Shown here: positions 33,317 through 38,469 of the stretch, piece by piece
Numbering within the stretch: the first letter of the stretch is position 1
Layout: the number at the start of each line of letters is the position of its first letter
Position numbers and translations under genes: made by a program
Source of the DNA: Planctomycetota bacterium
GTDB taxonomy: Bacteria; Planctomycetota; Phycisphaerae; UBA1845; UTPLA1
Length of the DNA stretch: 64,000 nt
Assembly: GCA_015654675.1 (NCBI GenBank)
Contig: JAATGM010000011.1
Coordinates: 1-64,000, forward strand
Reading direction: 5' to 3'
The notes under the pieces: model-generated
The model's input: the letters and a program-made list of their open reading frames with translations, nothing else
What the model was told of the DNA's origin: nothing
The model's database searches: none

Positions 33317-34409
33317 CGGGGGCGCTGATCTGAATCGGCCTTGATTTCGGTCTGGTGAGTTCGCGGTTGCCGAGTTGGCCGCAGGCGGCCATCAGGTCGC
33401 GGCCTTTCGTGACGCGGCGCTTGCAGAAGATGCCTTCGGATTGAAGCACGCGCATGAACTCGGACACTGACGCCTCAGATGGGGCCGGCCAGGGCGAGTC
33501 CTTTCTTGGGTTGTAGGGGATGATGTTGACGCTGCAGCGTACCGGCCGAATATAGCCGGCGAGCTCGCGAGCGTGTTCGGTGGCGTCGTTCACGCCGGGG
33601 ATCAGCACATATTCCACCATGATGGCGGCGCCGCGGCGGCCGGGAAAAGCGAGCATGGCGTCGCGCAGGGCGGCCATGTTGTCGGTTCGATTAATGGGCA
33701 TGATCTGAGAGCGGATTTCGTCGTTGGGGGCATTGAGCGAGACGGCGAGGTTGATGCGCCGCCATCCGAGGGCGGCGAGGCGGCGAATGCCGTCGGTGCG
33801 GCCGACGGTTGAGATGGTGATCCGGCCGCGGGCGATGGAGAGGCCGACGGTGTCGTTCAGGACGCGGACGGCCTGGACGACGTTGTCGAAGTTGTCCATC
33901 GGTTCGCCCATTCCCATGAAGACGACGTTTCGGACGTCGGCGGCGAGGAAGCGGCGGGCGGCGACAACCTGGCCGACGATTTCGGCGGTCGAAAGATTGC
34001 GGAGCAGACCGAGCTGGGCGGTCTCGCAAAAGGTACAGCCGCGAGCGCAGCCGACCTGGGACGACACGCAGAGCGTTTTCCAGGAGCGCTGGCCGCCGCC
34101 CATGGGGATGATGACGCTTTCGGTTTCGAGACCGTCGTGCGTGCGCTGGACGAATTTTACGAGCTCGCCGTCGTGGGTTTCGCGGACGATCGGGTTCGGG
34201 CAGTCGCGGAAATTCTGGGGGTCGGCGGCACCGAAGAACACTTCACGGTAGACCGCGCGGTGGGCGGGCAGGTCGTGTTGTCGGGCTGCGCGGGCGGCGG
34301 ACCATTCTTCGAAGGTTGAGGCGAAAGCGCAGAGATCGAGCGTTTTTCCCGGACTGGAAGCGGAATTGTGGGGTGCGTCATTGGTCGGTGCCTGCATCAT
34401 ATTGTACAT
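33291..34409 (-). CDS. rlmN: RlmN-family radical SAM 23S rRNA adenine-C2 methyltransferase
   Basis: 372 residues. RlmN methylates A2503 of 23S rRNA and A37 of some tRNAs with a 4Fe-4S cluster and SAM. SSQVGCARGCTFCETAQLG (near 116-134) holds the CX3CX2C cluster; GMGEPMDNFDNV (near 165-176) binds SAM; a late Cys in LMAACGQLGN (near 343-352) is the methyl-transfer/product Cys, and another Cys lies near 118. Cfr, which methylates C8 of the same base, shares these motifs, so RlmN is preferred by ubiquity. Several ATGs lie within the first five codons. The last 26 bases overlap ppdK on the other strand. Confidence 0.88.
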   Translation of the reverse strand: MYNMMQAPTNDAPHNSASSPGKTLDLCAFASTFEEWSAARAARQHDLPAHRAVYREVFFGAADPQNFRDCPNPIVRETHDGELVKFVQRTHDGLETESVIIPMGGGQRSWKTLCVSSQVGCARGCTFCETAQLGLLRNLSTAEIVGQVVAARRFLAADVRNVVFMGMGEPMDNFDNVVQAVRVLNDTVGLSIARGRITISTVGRTDGIRRLAALGWRRINLAVSLNAPNDEIRSQIMPINRTDNMAALRDAMLAFPGRRGAAIMVEYVLIPGVNDATEHARELAGYIRPVRCSVNIIPYNPRKDSPWPAPSEASVSEFMRVLQSEGIFCKRRVTKGRDLMAACGQLGNRELTRPKSRPIQISAPVSAAISSP

Positions 34410-34432
34410 GCCACTTTACAGGAGAAGGCGGC

Positions 34433-34864
34433 ATGGAACAAAGCACGTTGGTCCCGGTCGGGGGTGTCCTGCAGCGCGAGGTCGATAAGTTTCTGGCGGT
34501 TTCGCGGCGACGCAGCGAGCACGACCTGTATCTGGGGCGACGGGCGAGCCGGCGTTACTACCGCAATTGGCCGCTGCTGATCTCGCGGATCGGGCAGCAG
34601 GAGGTGCGCGACGTGAGCGCGGCGCTGCACAACGCTTCGGAGACCGGGCTGGCATTTCGATCGACGATGTCATTCCCGGAGGGGACGGTGCTGGCGGCGA
34701 AGCTGTTCTGGCATGATCCGCGGGCTTATCGCGTGCCGATGGTGGTTCGACATTGCGAGCCGGTTCCGAATGGGTTCATCGTCGGCTGCGAATTTGCGCT
34801 CGAGGACGAGTCGCTGTGCTCGTCGGCGTGCGAACTCGAGCCGGCGTGGTACGACCGGGTCTGA
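34433..34864 (+). CDS. PilZ-like domain protein
   Basis: 143 residues from the ATG at 34433, eight bases after GGAGAAGG. The middle has an Arg-rich stretch (RRASRRYYRNW near 32-42) followed by a beta-barrel-like region with NASETGLAF (near 68-76). This is close to the PilZ pattern RxxxR...(D/N)xSxxG that binds cyclic di-GMP. PilZ proteins often control motility or surface polysaccharides, both present in this window. The gene abuts the convergent CsrA-kinase gene with no bases between the two stop codons, which share a TGATCA palindrome. Ligand binding is an inference. Confidence 0.6.
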   Translation: MEQSTLVPVGGVLQREVDKFLAVSRRRSEHDLYLGRRASRRYYRNWPLLISRIGQQEVRDVSAALHNASETGLAFRSTMSFPEGTVLAAKLFWHDPRAYRVPMVVRHCEPVPNGFIVGCEFALEDESLCSSACELEPAWYDRV

Positions 34865-35773
34865 TCAGCTTGCGAGCGGCAGGGTGATGGTGAACCGCGA
34901 GCCGGTGGGCGAGGTCTCGACATCCAACCGGCCGCGCTGGCGGGTGATGACGCGGCGCGCGGTTGCGAGTCCGAGGCCGGTGCCGCCGGGGCGGGTTGAG
35001 AAGTAGGGCTCGAAGATTCGGGGCAGGACGGCCGGCGGGATTCCGGGGCCGGTGTCGATCACTTCAATTCTTGCGGACGAATTCACGTTTGACATTCGAA
35101 TGGTCAGGTTGCCGCCGGTGGGCATGGCTTGCTGAGCATTAAGGAGCAAATTGAGCAGCGCCTGCTTGAGGGCGTTGGCGTCGATGCGGCAGACGAGGGG
35201 CGCGGCGGGGCGATCGATGTGGAGCTTGATCGACGAGCGGGCGGCCTGGGGTTCGAAGAACTCGGATAAATCGGCGACGACATCGCGTATGTCGGTGGGG
35301 ACGAGGACGGGCTCGTCCTTGCCGACGTAGCGGACGTAGTCGTCGATGGTCTGGGCGAGGCGATCGACTTCGCGAAGCATGGTCTGGGCGCGGTGTTCGG
35401 CGCGGCGGGCGACGGGCGGAAGATCGGCGGGCTTTCCACCGGCGACGTCGCGCAGGTCCTCGGCGAGCAATTGAAGGTTGACGCGGAGGGTCGAGAGCGG
35501 GTTGCGGATTTCGTGAGCGAGGCCGCCGGCGACGGCCGTGAGCTCGGCGAGCTGGGCGGCGGCTTCGCGAGGCCGATCGGTCGGCGGCGCGGGCTGGTCG
35601 GGTCGATCGTTGGCTTCGCGGATGGCCTTGTGGACTTCCTTGCGATAGATCGAGATTGTGGACGGGGCGTCAAAACCGAGACGGACTTTGTCGCCGCGAA
35701 TATCGACGACGGTCACTTCGACGTCGTCGCCGACCATGACGGACTCTTCCCGCTGACGTGTGAGGACCAGCAT
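34865..35773 (-). CDS. CsrA domain fused to a complete soluble histidine kinase
   Basis: 302 residues from the ATG at 35773, six bases after AAGGAG; this ATG is also the exact first residue of CsrA, so the fusion is not an annotation artefact. Residues 1-55 are a full CsrA domain starting MLVLTR. The RNA-contact residues R6 and R44 and the conserved E10 and E46 are present. A Pro-rich linker (56-70) leads to a HisKA domain with the phosphorylated His at 87 (GLAHEIRNPLS), then HATPase_c with an N-box (NLLLNAQQAM), DTGPGIP, FEPYFST and GTGLGLATA. There is no membrane helix or PAS domain. CsrA binds GGA in mRNA leaders as a dimer; kinase dimers are also the rule. No response regulator is adjacent. 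Confidence 0.9.
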   Translation of the reverse strand: MLVLTRQREESVMVGDDVEVTVVDIRGDKVRLGFDAPSTISIYRKEVHKAIREANDRPDQPAPPTDRPREAAAQLAELTAVAGGLAHEIRNPLSTLRVNLQLLAEDLRDVAGGKPADLPPVARRAEHRAQTMLREVDRLAQTIDDYVRYVGKDEPVLVPTDIRDVVADLSEFFEPQAARSSIKLHIDRPAAPLVCRIDANALKQALLNLLLNAQQAMPTGGNLTIRMSNVNSSARIEVIDTGPGIPPAVLPRIFEPYFSTRPGGTGLGLATARRVITRQRGRLDVETSPTGSRFTITLPLAS

Positions 35774-35896
35774 CGGCGGCTCCTTCCCGGATGTGAGGGC
35801 GCGGCGGGGCGCGGGCGGGTTAACCGCCGGCGCCGGCGGCTCGCCGGCCACCATCCGTTCGCACTGGTTCGCTCAATCCGTCCGGATGCGGGCGGA

Positions 35897-38005
35897 TCAG
35901 GCGGGGGCCATCTGAGTGTCCTCGCGCATGGCCTGCTTGCGCGAGAGCTTGATGCGGCCGTGCTCGTCGATGGCGATGACCTTGACCTTGACGATATCGC
36001 CGATCTTGAGGACATCGCCGACCTTTCCAACGTAGTCGGTGGAAAGCTCGCTGATGTGGCAGAGGCCGTCGGTACCCGGGACGACTTCGATGAAGGCGCC
36101 GAACTCCTTGATGGAGGCGACTCGACCGGTGTAGATCTTGCCGATCTTCACCTCTTCGGTGACGCCTTCGACCATGCCGCGAGCGGCTTCAGCGCCCTCG
36201 GCATTGAGGCAGGAGATCATGACGGTGCCGTCGTCGTTGATGTCGATCTTCGCGCCGGTGGTGGCCTCGATGTGTCGAATGCCCTTGCCGGCGGGACCGA
36301 TGACCTTCCCGATCTTTTCGGGATTGATCTTGATGGTGAGCAGGCGCGGGGCGTAATTGCTGATGTTGGCGCGCGGGGCCCGCAGGGTGCTGAGCATTTC
36401 CTTGAGAATGTGGATGCGGGCGATGCGGGCCTTTTCGAGGGCGGCCACGATGAGATCGTGTCGCAGGCCGCGCGTCTTGAGGTCGAGCTGAACGGCGGTG
36501 ATTCCGGCCTGCGAGCCGGAGACCTTGAAGTCCATGTCGCCAAAGTGATCTTCCTCGCCGAGGATGTCGGTCAGGAGGACGTCGCGCTTGCCATCGGACA
36601 CAAGGCCGATGCTGATGCCCGCGACGGGATGCTTAATGGGGACACCGGCGTCCATGAGGGCGAGGGTTCCGCCGCAGACGGAGGCCATCGAACTGGAGCC
36701 GTTGGACTCCATGATGTCACTGACGAGGCGGATGGTGTAGGGGAATTTCTCGGGGGGCGGGAGCACGGATTCGAGGCCGCGCTCAGCGAGAGCACCGTGG
36801 CCGATTTCTCGGCGACCCGGGCCCATGATCTTGCGAACTTCGCCGACCGAGAACGGGGGGAAGTTGTAATGGAGCATGAACTTCTTGCTGTATTCCTCGC
36901 CGAGGGCGTCGACGATCTGCTCGTCGCGGGAGGTGCCGAGCGTCACGACGACGAGGGCCTGCGTTTCGCCGCGGCTGAAGATGGATGAGCCGTGCGTTCG
37001 CGGCAGGATGCCGACCTCGCACTTGATGCCGCGGATGTCGTCGAGGCCGCGACCGTCCGGGCGAATGCCCTCTTCGAGAATAGTCTGGCGGACGACTTCT
37101 TCCTCAAGCCGCTGGAGCTCGGCGTAGATGGCGTCGCGCGGAATCTCGGGCTTTTCGACCGTCTTGGGGGTGATGCCGTTCATGATTTCGTCATAGACGG
37201 CGGAGACGGAATCGTTCCGCTCCTGCTTCTTGACGATGCGCTTGGCGGCGCGGAGCTTATCGCGGCCCATCGAGCGAACGCGGTCGCGCAGGCCGGTGTT
37301 GGAGGCCGGGGGCGTCCACTTCTTCTGGACGCCGACCTTGTCGGCCAGCTCCTGAATCAAGCTGACGACATCCTTGATGACGTTGAAGCCGAAGGCAATG
37401 CTGTCGGCGACGGCCTGCTCGGAGACTTCGTGCGCTCCGATTTCGATCATGTTGACGGCGTCGCGGTGACCGGCGAGGACGACTTCCATGTCGCTGACGT
37501 CGAGCTGGGCCTGGGTCGGGTTGATGACGAATTCGCCATCGACGCGGCCGACGCGGACGGCGGCCGTGGGGCCCTCGAACGGGATGGGGCTGACGGCGAG
37601 GGCGGCCGATGCGCCGATCATCGCGAGGATGTCCGGTTCGTTTTCGTTATCCGCGGAGAGAACCATGGTCTGAATGACGACTTCGTCGCGGTAGCCATCG
37701 GGGAAGAGGGGGCGGATCGGGCGGTCGATCAGCCGCATGGTGAGGATTTCCTTGGTGGAGGGGCGGCCTTCGCGCTTATAGAAACCGCCCGGGAACTTGC
37801 CGGCGGCATACATCTTCTCGCGGTAGTCGACCATGAGGGGGAAGAAGTCGATTCCTTCGCGGGGCTTACCGGTGACGACGGTCGCGAGGATGACAGTGTC
37901 GCCGTAGCGAATCATGGCTGATCCGTGGGCTTGTTTCGCGATTTTCCCCGTTTCGATGGAAAGCAATCTTCCGCCAATTTGACGTTCTACTTTATGTGAA
38001 TTCAT
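35897..38005 (-). CDS. pnp: Polyribonucleotide nucleotidyltransferase (PNPase)
   Basis: 702 residues, the normal length. PNPase degrades RNA from the 3' end with phosphate and forms a trimeric ring. Two RNase PH domains (about 10-225 and 305-550) carry the conserved KREGRPSTKEILTMRLIDRP stretch and the GRREIGHGALAERGL site. A KH domain follows (near 553-615, IGKVIGPAGKGI) and an S1 domain (near 622-692, GRVASIKEFGAFIEV). The ATG at 38005 follows GGAGTAGG. It lies downstream of rpsO, the classic rpsO-pnp order. The C-terminal tail after S1 is short. Confidence 0.97.
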   Translation of the reverse strand: MNSHKVERQIGGRLLSIETGKIAKQAHGSAMIRYGDTVILATVVTGKPREGIDFFPLMVDYREKMYAAGKFPGGFYKREGRPSTKEILTMRLIDRPIRPLFPDGYRDEVVIQTMVLSADNENEPDILAMIGASAALAVSPIPFEGPTAAVRVGRVDGEFVINPTQAQLDVSDMEVVLAGHRDAVNMIEIGAHEVSEQAVADSIAFGFNVIKDVVSLIQELADKVGVQKKWTPPASNTGLRDRVRSMGRDKLRAAKRIVKKQERNDSVSAVYDEIMNGITPKTVEKPEIPRDAIYAELQRLEEEVVRQTILEEGIRPDGRGLDDIRGIKCEVGILPRTHGSSIFSRGETQALVVVTLGTSRDEQIVDALGEEYSKKFMLHYNFPPFSVGEVRKIMGPGRREIGHGALAERGLESVLPPPEKFPYTIRLVSDIMESNGSSSMASVCGGTLALMDAGVPIKHPVAGISIGLVSDGKRDVLLTDILGEEDHFGDMDFKVSGSQAGITAVQLDLKTRGLRHDLIVAALEKARIARIHILKEMLSTLRAPRANISNYAPRLLTIKINPEKIGKVIGPAGKGIRHIEATTGAKIDINDDGTVMISCLNAEGAEAARGMVEGVTEEVKIGKIYTGRVASIKEFGAFIEVVPGTDGLCHISELSTDYVGKVGDVLKIGDIVKVKVIAIDEHGRIKLSRKQAMREDTQMAPA

Positions 38006-38199: not shown

Positions 38200-38469
38200 C
38201 TACTTCCGCAGCCCCAAGCGGCCGATGAGCTTGTGGTAGCGATTGGGATCACTCTTCGTCAGATATTTGAGCAAGCGGTTGCGTTTGCCGACTAGCTTGA
38301 GCAGACCGCGGCGCGAGGAGTGATCCTTCTTGTGACCTTTGAGGTGCTCCGTGAGCTGTGCAATCCGCTCGGTCAGCAGGGCGATTTGCACTTCGGGCGA
38401 GCCGGTGTCGCCATCGTGAATTCGATAGGAGCCGACCAGTTCCTGCTTTTTCTGAAGCGCGATTGACAT
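38200..38469 (-). CDS. rpsO: Small ribosomal subunit protein uS15
   Basis: 89 residues, the exact length of bacterial S15, which binds the central domain of 16S rRNA. The signature region is intact: [20 protein letters not shown] (residues 17-36), the [17 protein letters not shown] turn that contacts the three-way junction, and the C-terminal [21 protein letters not shown] lies just before the ATG, unusually close. Read with or upstream of pnp. Confidence 0.97.

Follow-up and report, generated by a model that had tools for sequence, protein, structure and literature searches.

CsrA has mostly been studied as a small free protein, and its structure does not fit the response-regulator class. 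Sensor kinases carry their input at the N-terminus, and both CsrA and kinase domains form dimers. The accessible text of PMC12471899 counts CsrA among the orphan response regulators. The ANTAR regulators AmiR, NasR, EutV and PdtaR are RNA-binding members of two-component or related systems, according to the accessible portions of PMC12471899 and PMC3369931. An earlier note on the DNA analysed here knew of no described CsrA-kinase of this form; among the matches listed from the open-licence literature, neither a CsrA-kinase nor a CsrA-receiver fusion was found in print, and the statement is upheld within that scope.

In the window, the whole 64,000-nucleotide stretch of DNA that was analysed, a single gene encodes an N-terminal CsrA domain followed by the HisKA and HATPase_c domains of a histidine kinase (Table 1). 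The Pfam matches are an E value of 1.3e-21 and 76.8 bits for CsrA (PF02599, gathering cut-off 27), 5.3e-9 and 36.5 bits for HisKA (cut-off 26.9), and 3.4e-25 and 89.1 bits, above the gathering score, for HATPase_c. The NCBIfam csrA models TIGR00202 and PRK01712 pass their own cut-offs on the same chain. All kinase boxes are present (HEIRNP 87, NLLLNAQ 208, DTGPG 240, FEPYFSTR 254 and GTGLGL 264), which we take to be the H-box followed by the N, G1, F and G2 boxes. The 302 residues contain no Response_reg match by Pfam, and the protein is not of the hybrid histidine kinase type. The coordinates, the order of three complete domains, residues R6, R44, E46 and H87 and the ribosome-binding site at the CsrA ATG, all given in the earlier note, were recovered. 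An ATG at 35854 opens a longer frame; the start at 35773 is preferred because of the ribosome site and the CsrA homology. A low-confidence model of the monomer, predicted from the single sequence (mean pLDDT 47.5), places a coil of ten residues, rich in proline, between the helix of CsrA (residues 45–56) and a long kinase helix (residues 67–110).

Table 1 Features of the fusion gene and its surroundings, with the CsrA-receiver proteins of other genomes; positions are those of the window except where a locus is named.
Feature	Position	Strand	Remarks
CsrA-histidine kinase fusion gene	34865..35773	-	302 aa + stop; ATG at 35773, stop ends at 34865
Ribosome-binding site AAGGAG	35780..35785	-	6 nt 5' of the fusion ATG; read directly
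CsrA domain, residues 1-53	35615..35773	-	L4, R6, R44, E46 and I51 kept; N55 directly beyond
Linker, residues 57-66, RPDQPAPPTD	35576..35605	-	From the translation; coil between two helices in the low-confidence single-sequence model
HisKA domain, residues 81-146	35336..35533	-	Pfam; carries the box HEIRNP
His87 codon, predicted phosphorylation site	35513..35515	-	Motif reading
HATPase_c domain, residues 198-301	34871..35182	-	NLLLNAQ 208, DTGPG 240, FEPYFSTR 254, GTGLGL 264
pnp (polynucleotide phosphorylase)	35897..38005	-	123 nt upstream of the fusion ATG; Pfam RNase_PH, PNPase, KH, S1
rpsO (ribosomal protein S15)	38200..38469	-	Upstream of pnp; Pfam Ribosomal_S15
PilZ-domain gene	34316..34864	+	Convergent; its end adjoins the fusion stop; Pfam
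CsrA-receiver proteins	L125 from 1535; L127 from 1463; L142 6016-6609 (-); L134 1456-2100 (-); L143 from 1501		About 200-227 residues

Homology on both sides of the join runs in one frame. Codons 35–100 contain no stop and no ATG, GTG or TTG in any of the three frames of the strand. Since no frame offers a stop or a start at the join, a single insertion or deletion cannot split the frame into a csrA and a kinase gene, and no start codon for the kinase precedes its H-box. The fusion occurs in one genome only and its sequence is known from an assembly, not from reads, so the join might be a sequencing or assembly error. We consider this extremely improbable in view of the uninterrupted reading frames, the single-frame homology and the gene order of the two nearest relatives by both pnp identity and the kinase tree (G011 and G003). 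These carry pnp followed by a kinase devoid of CsrA, and their kinases group with that of the present genome (G000) with support values of 98/94 and 95/98, respectively; an assembly chimera is unlikely because this order is shared. The in-frame join reported earlier, with one frame and both halves complete, is thus confirmed, and the homologues are not two separate genes, the situation that the note had named as fatal to it, but the kinase alone. As read from the assembled DNA, the CsrA-kinase is confirmed as a real and singular domain fusion.

All 17 family genomes carry a close orthologue of the kinase half (E ≤ 1e-40), those of the other 16 being 44–52% identical. Matches were also obtained in 49 of 114 genomes of the order (E ≤ 1e-38), in 303 of 397 sampled genomes of the class (E ≤ 1e-30, of which 13, by an eye count, do not reach 1e-38 and are possibly other kinases) and in 92 of 392 genomes of the phylum (E ≤ 1e-45). 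Among the matches listed, only the gene itself aligns from residue 1, and all others begin no earlier than residue 15. No CsrA was found at the N-termini of orthologues in the 40 loci that were read (22, 12 and 6; seven more distant kinases were displayed beside the first 22), which leaves the fusion as the sole member of the pnp-linked orthologue group with a CsrA domain. In these proteins a short leader precedes the conserved helix, and some of the leaders contain a single hydrophobic segment. The class orthologues with early alignment starts, G250 (residue 15), G299 (18), G296 (35), G273 (39) and G392 (43), have no N-terminal CsrA. The six phylum loci (G445, G760, G637, G720, G684 and G739), which include the earliest phylum alignment starts at residues 35, 36, 41 and 45, have no CsrA at the kinase, the best match having an E value of 0.9. 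Weak CsrA matches in the 12 class loci lie away from the kinase N-terminus and were dismissed (L097, E 0.027, within pnp; L093, E 0.098), as was a CsrA-like tblastn match upstream of the L007 kinase (E 0.57), which is in another frame and runs across the end of pnp. In 13 genomes holding both genes of the rate test the kinase half evolves at an average rate, with a mean residual of +0.004 (rank 6 of 13) and a tip length of 0.47 against a median of 0.45. These comparisons show the kinase half as a predicted short, conserved histidine kinase, ZraS/AtoS/NtrB-like and with no recognisable sensor, to whose N-terminus one lineage, judged from the genomes compared, joined CsrA in frame.

Two degenerate DNA patterns, each consisting of CsrA, a set spacing and the kinase H-box, returned no second CsrA-kinase from 84,980 genomes. 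The present genome possibly lies outside this species set, and both patterns recover the window. The CsrA half of one pattern detects 25 of 33 free csrA loci and that of the other 5 of 33, either detecting 25 of 33; the 33 test loci include three divergent paralogues from the present genome. The kinase half detects 29 of 34 orthologue loci, and the spacings covered from E46 to the histidine are about 29–49 residues. The combined sensitivity is about two thirds in this group and probably lower elsewhere, so a second case may exist unseen. Of 4809 matching records in a plasmid collection, 83 have one place with at least 80% query coverage, and none of the best 60 starts before residue 28. The search for the same domain order in other genomes, proposed in the earlier note, thus yielded no second case at partial sensitivity, and CsrA on a kinase is a single case so far.

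The kinase locus includes pnp in 22 of 31 loci, the present one among them, comprising 11 of 17 loci in the family (in one, pnp is about 5 kb from the kinase) and 11 of 14 outside it. The rpsO-pnp-kinase cluster recurs in relatives. A CheY-like receiver gene stands upstream of rpsO in 7 of the 17 family loci and is absent from the window. The PilZ-domain assignment was made by Pfam on the gene in the window only; G011 has a gene that resembles it (L066 8033-8482) and is also convergent with the kinase. An NtrC-type regulator, consisting of a receiver, a sigma-54 activator domain and a Fis-type helix, is encoded downstream of the kinase, on its strand and no more than 1.6 kb away, in 10 of the 14 loci from outside the family but in none of the 17 family loci; the 12 class loci were chosen because their alignments started early or scored high, not randomly, and two of the family contigs are short. 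A single strong orthologue of this regulator (E ≤ 1e-138) is present in 15 of the 16 family genomes searched, G016 having none, and that of the present genome lies at C50:38319-39674. No kinase resembling that of the fusion was found among the called genes near the regulator orthologue in 6 of 6 loci read. Because of the gene neighbourhood in other families, the partner of the kinase is probably this NtrC-type sigma-54 activator, which in the fusion's own family stands apart from the kinase and is encoded alone elsewhere in the genome.

The position downstream of pnp also brings up local autoregulation, in which the CsrA part would chiefly target the fusion's own mRNA or that of neighbouring pnp and leave signalling unaffected. 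The accessible text of PMC7652899, citing Park et al. 2015, reports that pnp expression is under CsrA control, and GGA motifs overlap the ribosome site of the fusion. However, any strong ribosome site contains GGA, and the leader folds in an ordinary way (z -0.95, with 32 of 200 shuffles folding at least as well). We regard this explanation as highly unlikely. A scan for promoters and terminators found none.

The genome that carries the fusion yields five matches to CsrA at E ≤ 0.001, of which four exceed the cut-off. The five are a canonical csrA on contig C62, the fusion and three divergent copies. The canonical csrA lies beside fliW and flagellin, and this fliW, at C62:142224, is the only one. 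Both of the free genes that the earlier note had suggested looking for are therefore present, and the fusion is an extra CsrA. Two divergent CsrA-like genes with a six-residue domain insert lie about 2.5 kb apart on another contig (L129; G000:C30, at about 84.8 and 87.3 kb), and G008 and G001 have pairs of CsrA-like genes about 5–7 kb apart.

Across 30 free CsrA proteins of the order, 33 columns do not vary; the fused CsrA keeps 25 of these, among them L4, R6, R44, E46, I51 and N55, and is changed at the other eight (S5, D9, I14, I34, V42, H43, Y48 and E54). L4 and R44 are described as particularly critical for RNA binding by CsrA in the accessible text of PMC7652899, and in Campylobacter V51 and N55 of CsrA are needed for full FliW binding, as stated in that of PMC7829508. 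Since 25 of 33 columns are kept overall, the joint retention of the FliW contacts I51 and N55 does not exceed chance expectation (about 0.57), and the persistence of L4 and R44 alongside them carries no significance of its own. The tail of free CsrA after residue 55 is missing and is replaced by the linker and the kinase. In a CsrA tree of 32 rows and 62 columns the fused domain falls outside the free CsrA proteins of the order (support 80/75) on a branch of 2.15. This long branch, and the contrast with a dN of only 0.024 between the free csrA genes of the same genome and G011, indicate that the fused CsrA changes faster than free CsrA. The dN/dS ratio between the fused CsrA and the free csrA of the genome is about 0.14, a rough value at a dS of 1.66, and fits selection for a folded CsrA part. 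As to origin, V20 is shared with the free csrA of the same genome alone among the 30 free proteins; it was rejected as a sign of descent from that gene, being present in L003 as well. Of the 16 remaining family genomes, just two, G006 and G014, have a csrA gene in the kinase locus. In both, this csrA stands some 2 kb upstream and belongs to a fliW-csrA-flagellin cluster, where the kinase follows flagellin and is not at the pnp site; it was not accepted as a clear intermediate.

The same data bear on whether CsrA is a passenger, captured by chance at the start of a kinase that continues its ancestral job with little or no effect from the added domain. The singleton status among the genomes searched, the long branch with eight of 33 invariant columns changed, the normal evolution of the kinase half and the flexible linker all point this way. 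They are opposed by the dN/dS of about 0.14 and the Pfam score of 76.8 bits, which argue that the CsrA part is still selected, and by the retention of the core CsrA contacts. On balance the chance capture appears rather unlikely.

CsrA is also joined to other domains in related genomes. Five long-frame PF02599 matches from three genomes of the order were examined, of which three are CsrA-receiver proteins (in G036, G027 and G039:C75), one is a CsrA-PfkB protein (G039:C10) and one is a CsrA with no recognised second domain (G027:C19). A profile of the G036 and G027 CsrA-receiver proteins matches over its full length in 4 of 397 class genomes (G036, G027, G078 and G039), with four further matches starting at residues 43–67. 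In the phylum it matches over its full length in 1 of 392 genomes (G737, of another class), and seven other matches start at residues 28–67; the two that start earliest, in G535 and G557, have no CsrA match beyond chance. CsrA-receiver fusions are thus found in five genomes of two classes, and all five proteins pass Pfam for both CsrA and the receiver. Those of G027 and G078 are 86% identical, and each is encoded near an ethylene-receptor-like histidine kinase (ETR1_N, PAS, HisKA and HATPase_c in that of G027, to which the G078 protein is 91% identical), in G027 with a receiver gene in between. In the protein of G039:C75 (L134) the usual phospho-acceptor aspartate seems by eye to be a glutamate (VVMELRLPD). 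In G039:C10 (L124 from 1792) CsrA is in frame with a PfkB-type sugar kinase over 372 residues, with an internal methionine before PfkB. The five CsrA-receiver fusions and the CsrA-PfkB fusion together make CsrA a recurrent N-terminal module in this group. The CsrA-receiver proteins are possible RNA-binding response regulators with CsrA as the output.

If CsrA is an output there, two-component control of CsrA becomes plausible in the group, and this favours a switch in which the kinase half controls CsrA, with ATP binding or phosphorylation of His87 opening or closing RNA binding. The two halves, both of domain types that form dimers, are also near each other in the chain. The kinase fusion, however, places CsrA at the input position, has no receiver domain in the chain and a proline-rich linker between the halves, and the likely output of its kinase is phosphotransfer to the sigma-54 regulator. 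We judge the switch decidedly unlikely. The earlier note's proposal that the kinase could lock or release the RNA-binding face is accordingly not supported: CsrA is N-terminal, the orthologues in 40 loci do without it, the likely partner is a sigma-54 regulator and a proline-rich coil parts the two halves. Kinase control of RNA binding is possible, without specific support.

The reading preferred here, to which we assign a rough probability of 0.45, is that the kinase acquired CsrA as an input or docking module, which couples the state of CsrA, FliW and RNA to a sigma-54 phosphorelay. An added input or tether is favoured because of the N-terminal position of CsrA, the kinase relatives with no recognised sensor, the unchanged rate of the kinase, the likely transcription-activating partner and the proline-rich coil. 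The dimer formed by CsrA would also be that of the kinase, and GGA-type RNA, the single FliW protein or both would bind the CsrA part and thereby place or modulate the kinase. The phosphorelay to the sigma-54 regulator would then follow the state of the CsrA/FliW/RNA network. With its prolines, the linker looks more like a tether or a steric gate than like a stiff helix that passes on a signal. We infer, rather than show, that the direction runs from CsrA to the kinase and not from the kinase to RNA binding. Against the input reading, the fusion is a singleton, so that conservation of the joined form rests on one case; the eight changed columns, the replaced tail and the branch of 2.15 would indicate departure from free CsrA; the FliW contacts are kept at no more than chance level; the leader fold is ordinary; the likely partner is assigned from gene order in other families; and the linker, as modelled, would oppose helical signal transmission. 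The more specific form, an RNA- or FliW-gated kinase whose CsrA dimer is the sensor and in which occupancy by the CsrA network sets phosphorylation of the sigma-54 activator, is doubtful.

Were CsrA to gate the kinase, the cell could read its own mRNA-binding regulator as a signal, and a link would arise between two layers of regulation that small RNAs or FliW usually connect. Such gating would also make the fusion a simple protein in which to study the control of a kinase by RNA binding. Together with the CsrA-receiver fusions, a gated kinase would mean that CsrA has been wired into both ends of two-component signalling in this group. Even with nil effect on the kinase, the kinase, receiver and PfkB fusions present CsrA as a domain joined to signalling and metabolic enzymes in these bacteria. 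The prediction drawn from the fusion is interesting and testable; a switch is not demonstrated.

Compared with known systems, the kinase half is closest to the HisKA kinases of the ZraS, AtoS and NtrB types, with which it shares the HisKA and HATPase_c domains, the HEIRNP box and, by neighbourhood, an NtrC-type sigma-54 regulator as the likely partner. The best NCBIfam models are AtoS (164.5 bits) and ZraS (143 bits), neither of which reaches its full-length cut-off, and the closest solved structure is ZraS (9jfj, E 5.3e-26). Unlike these kinases, the fusion has no known sensor domain and carries CsrA at its N-terminus instead. Its CsrA half resembles free CsrA/RsmA under FliW control in passing Pfam and TIGR00202 and in keeping the RNA and FliW contact positions. 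It differs in that it is not a small free protein: the tail of free CsrA is missing, a kinase is attached and the genome has a separate canonical csrA. In the ANTAR regulators the RNA-binding domain is ANTAR and serves as an output, whereas here CsrA is attached to a kinase. Further counterparts are the CsrA-receiver fusions of G036, G027, G078, G039 and G737, in which CsrA likewise stands N-terminal to a two-component module, with a receiver in place of the kinase.
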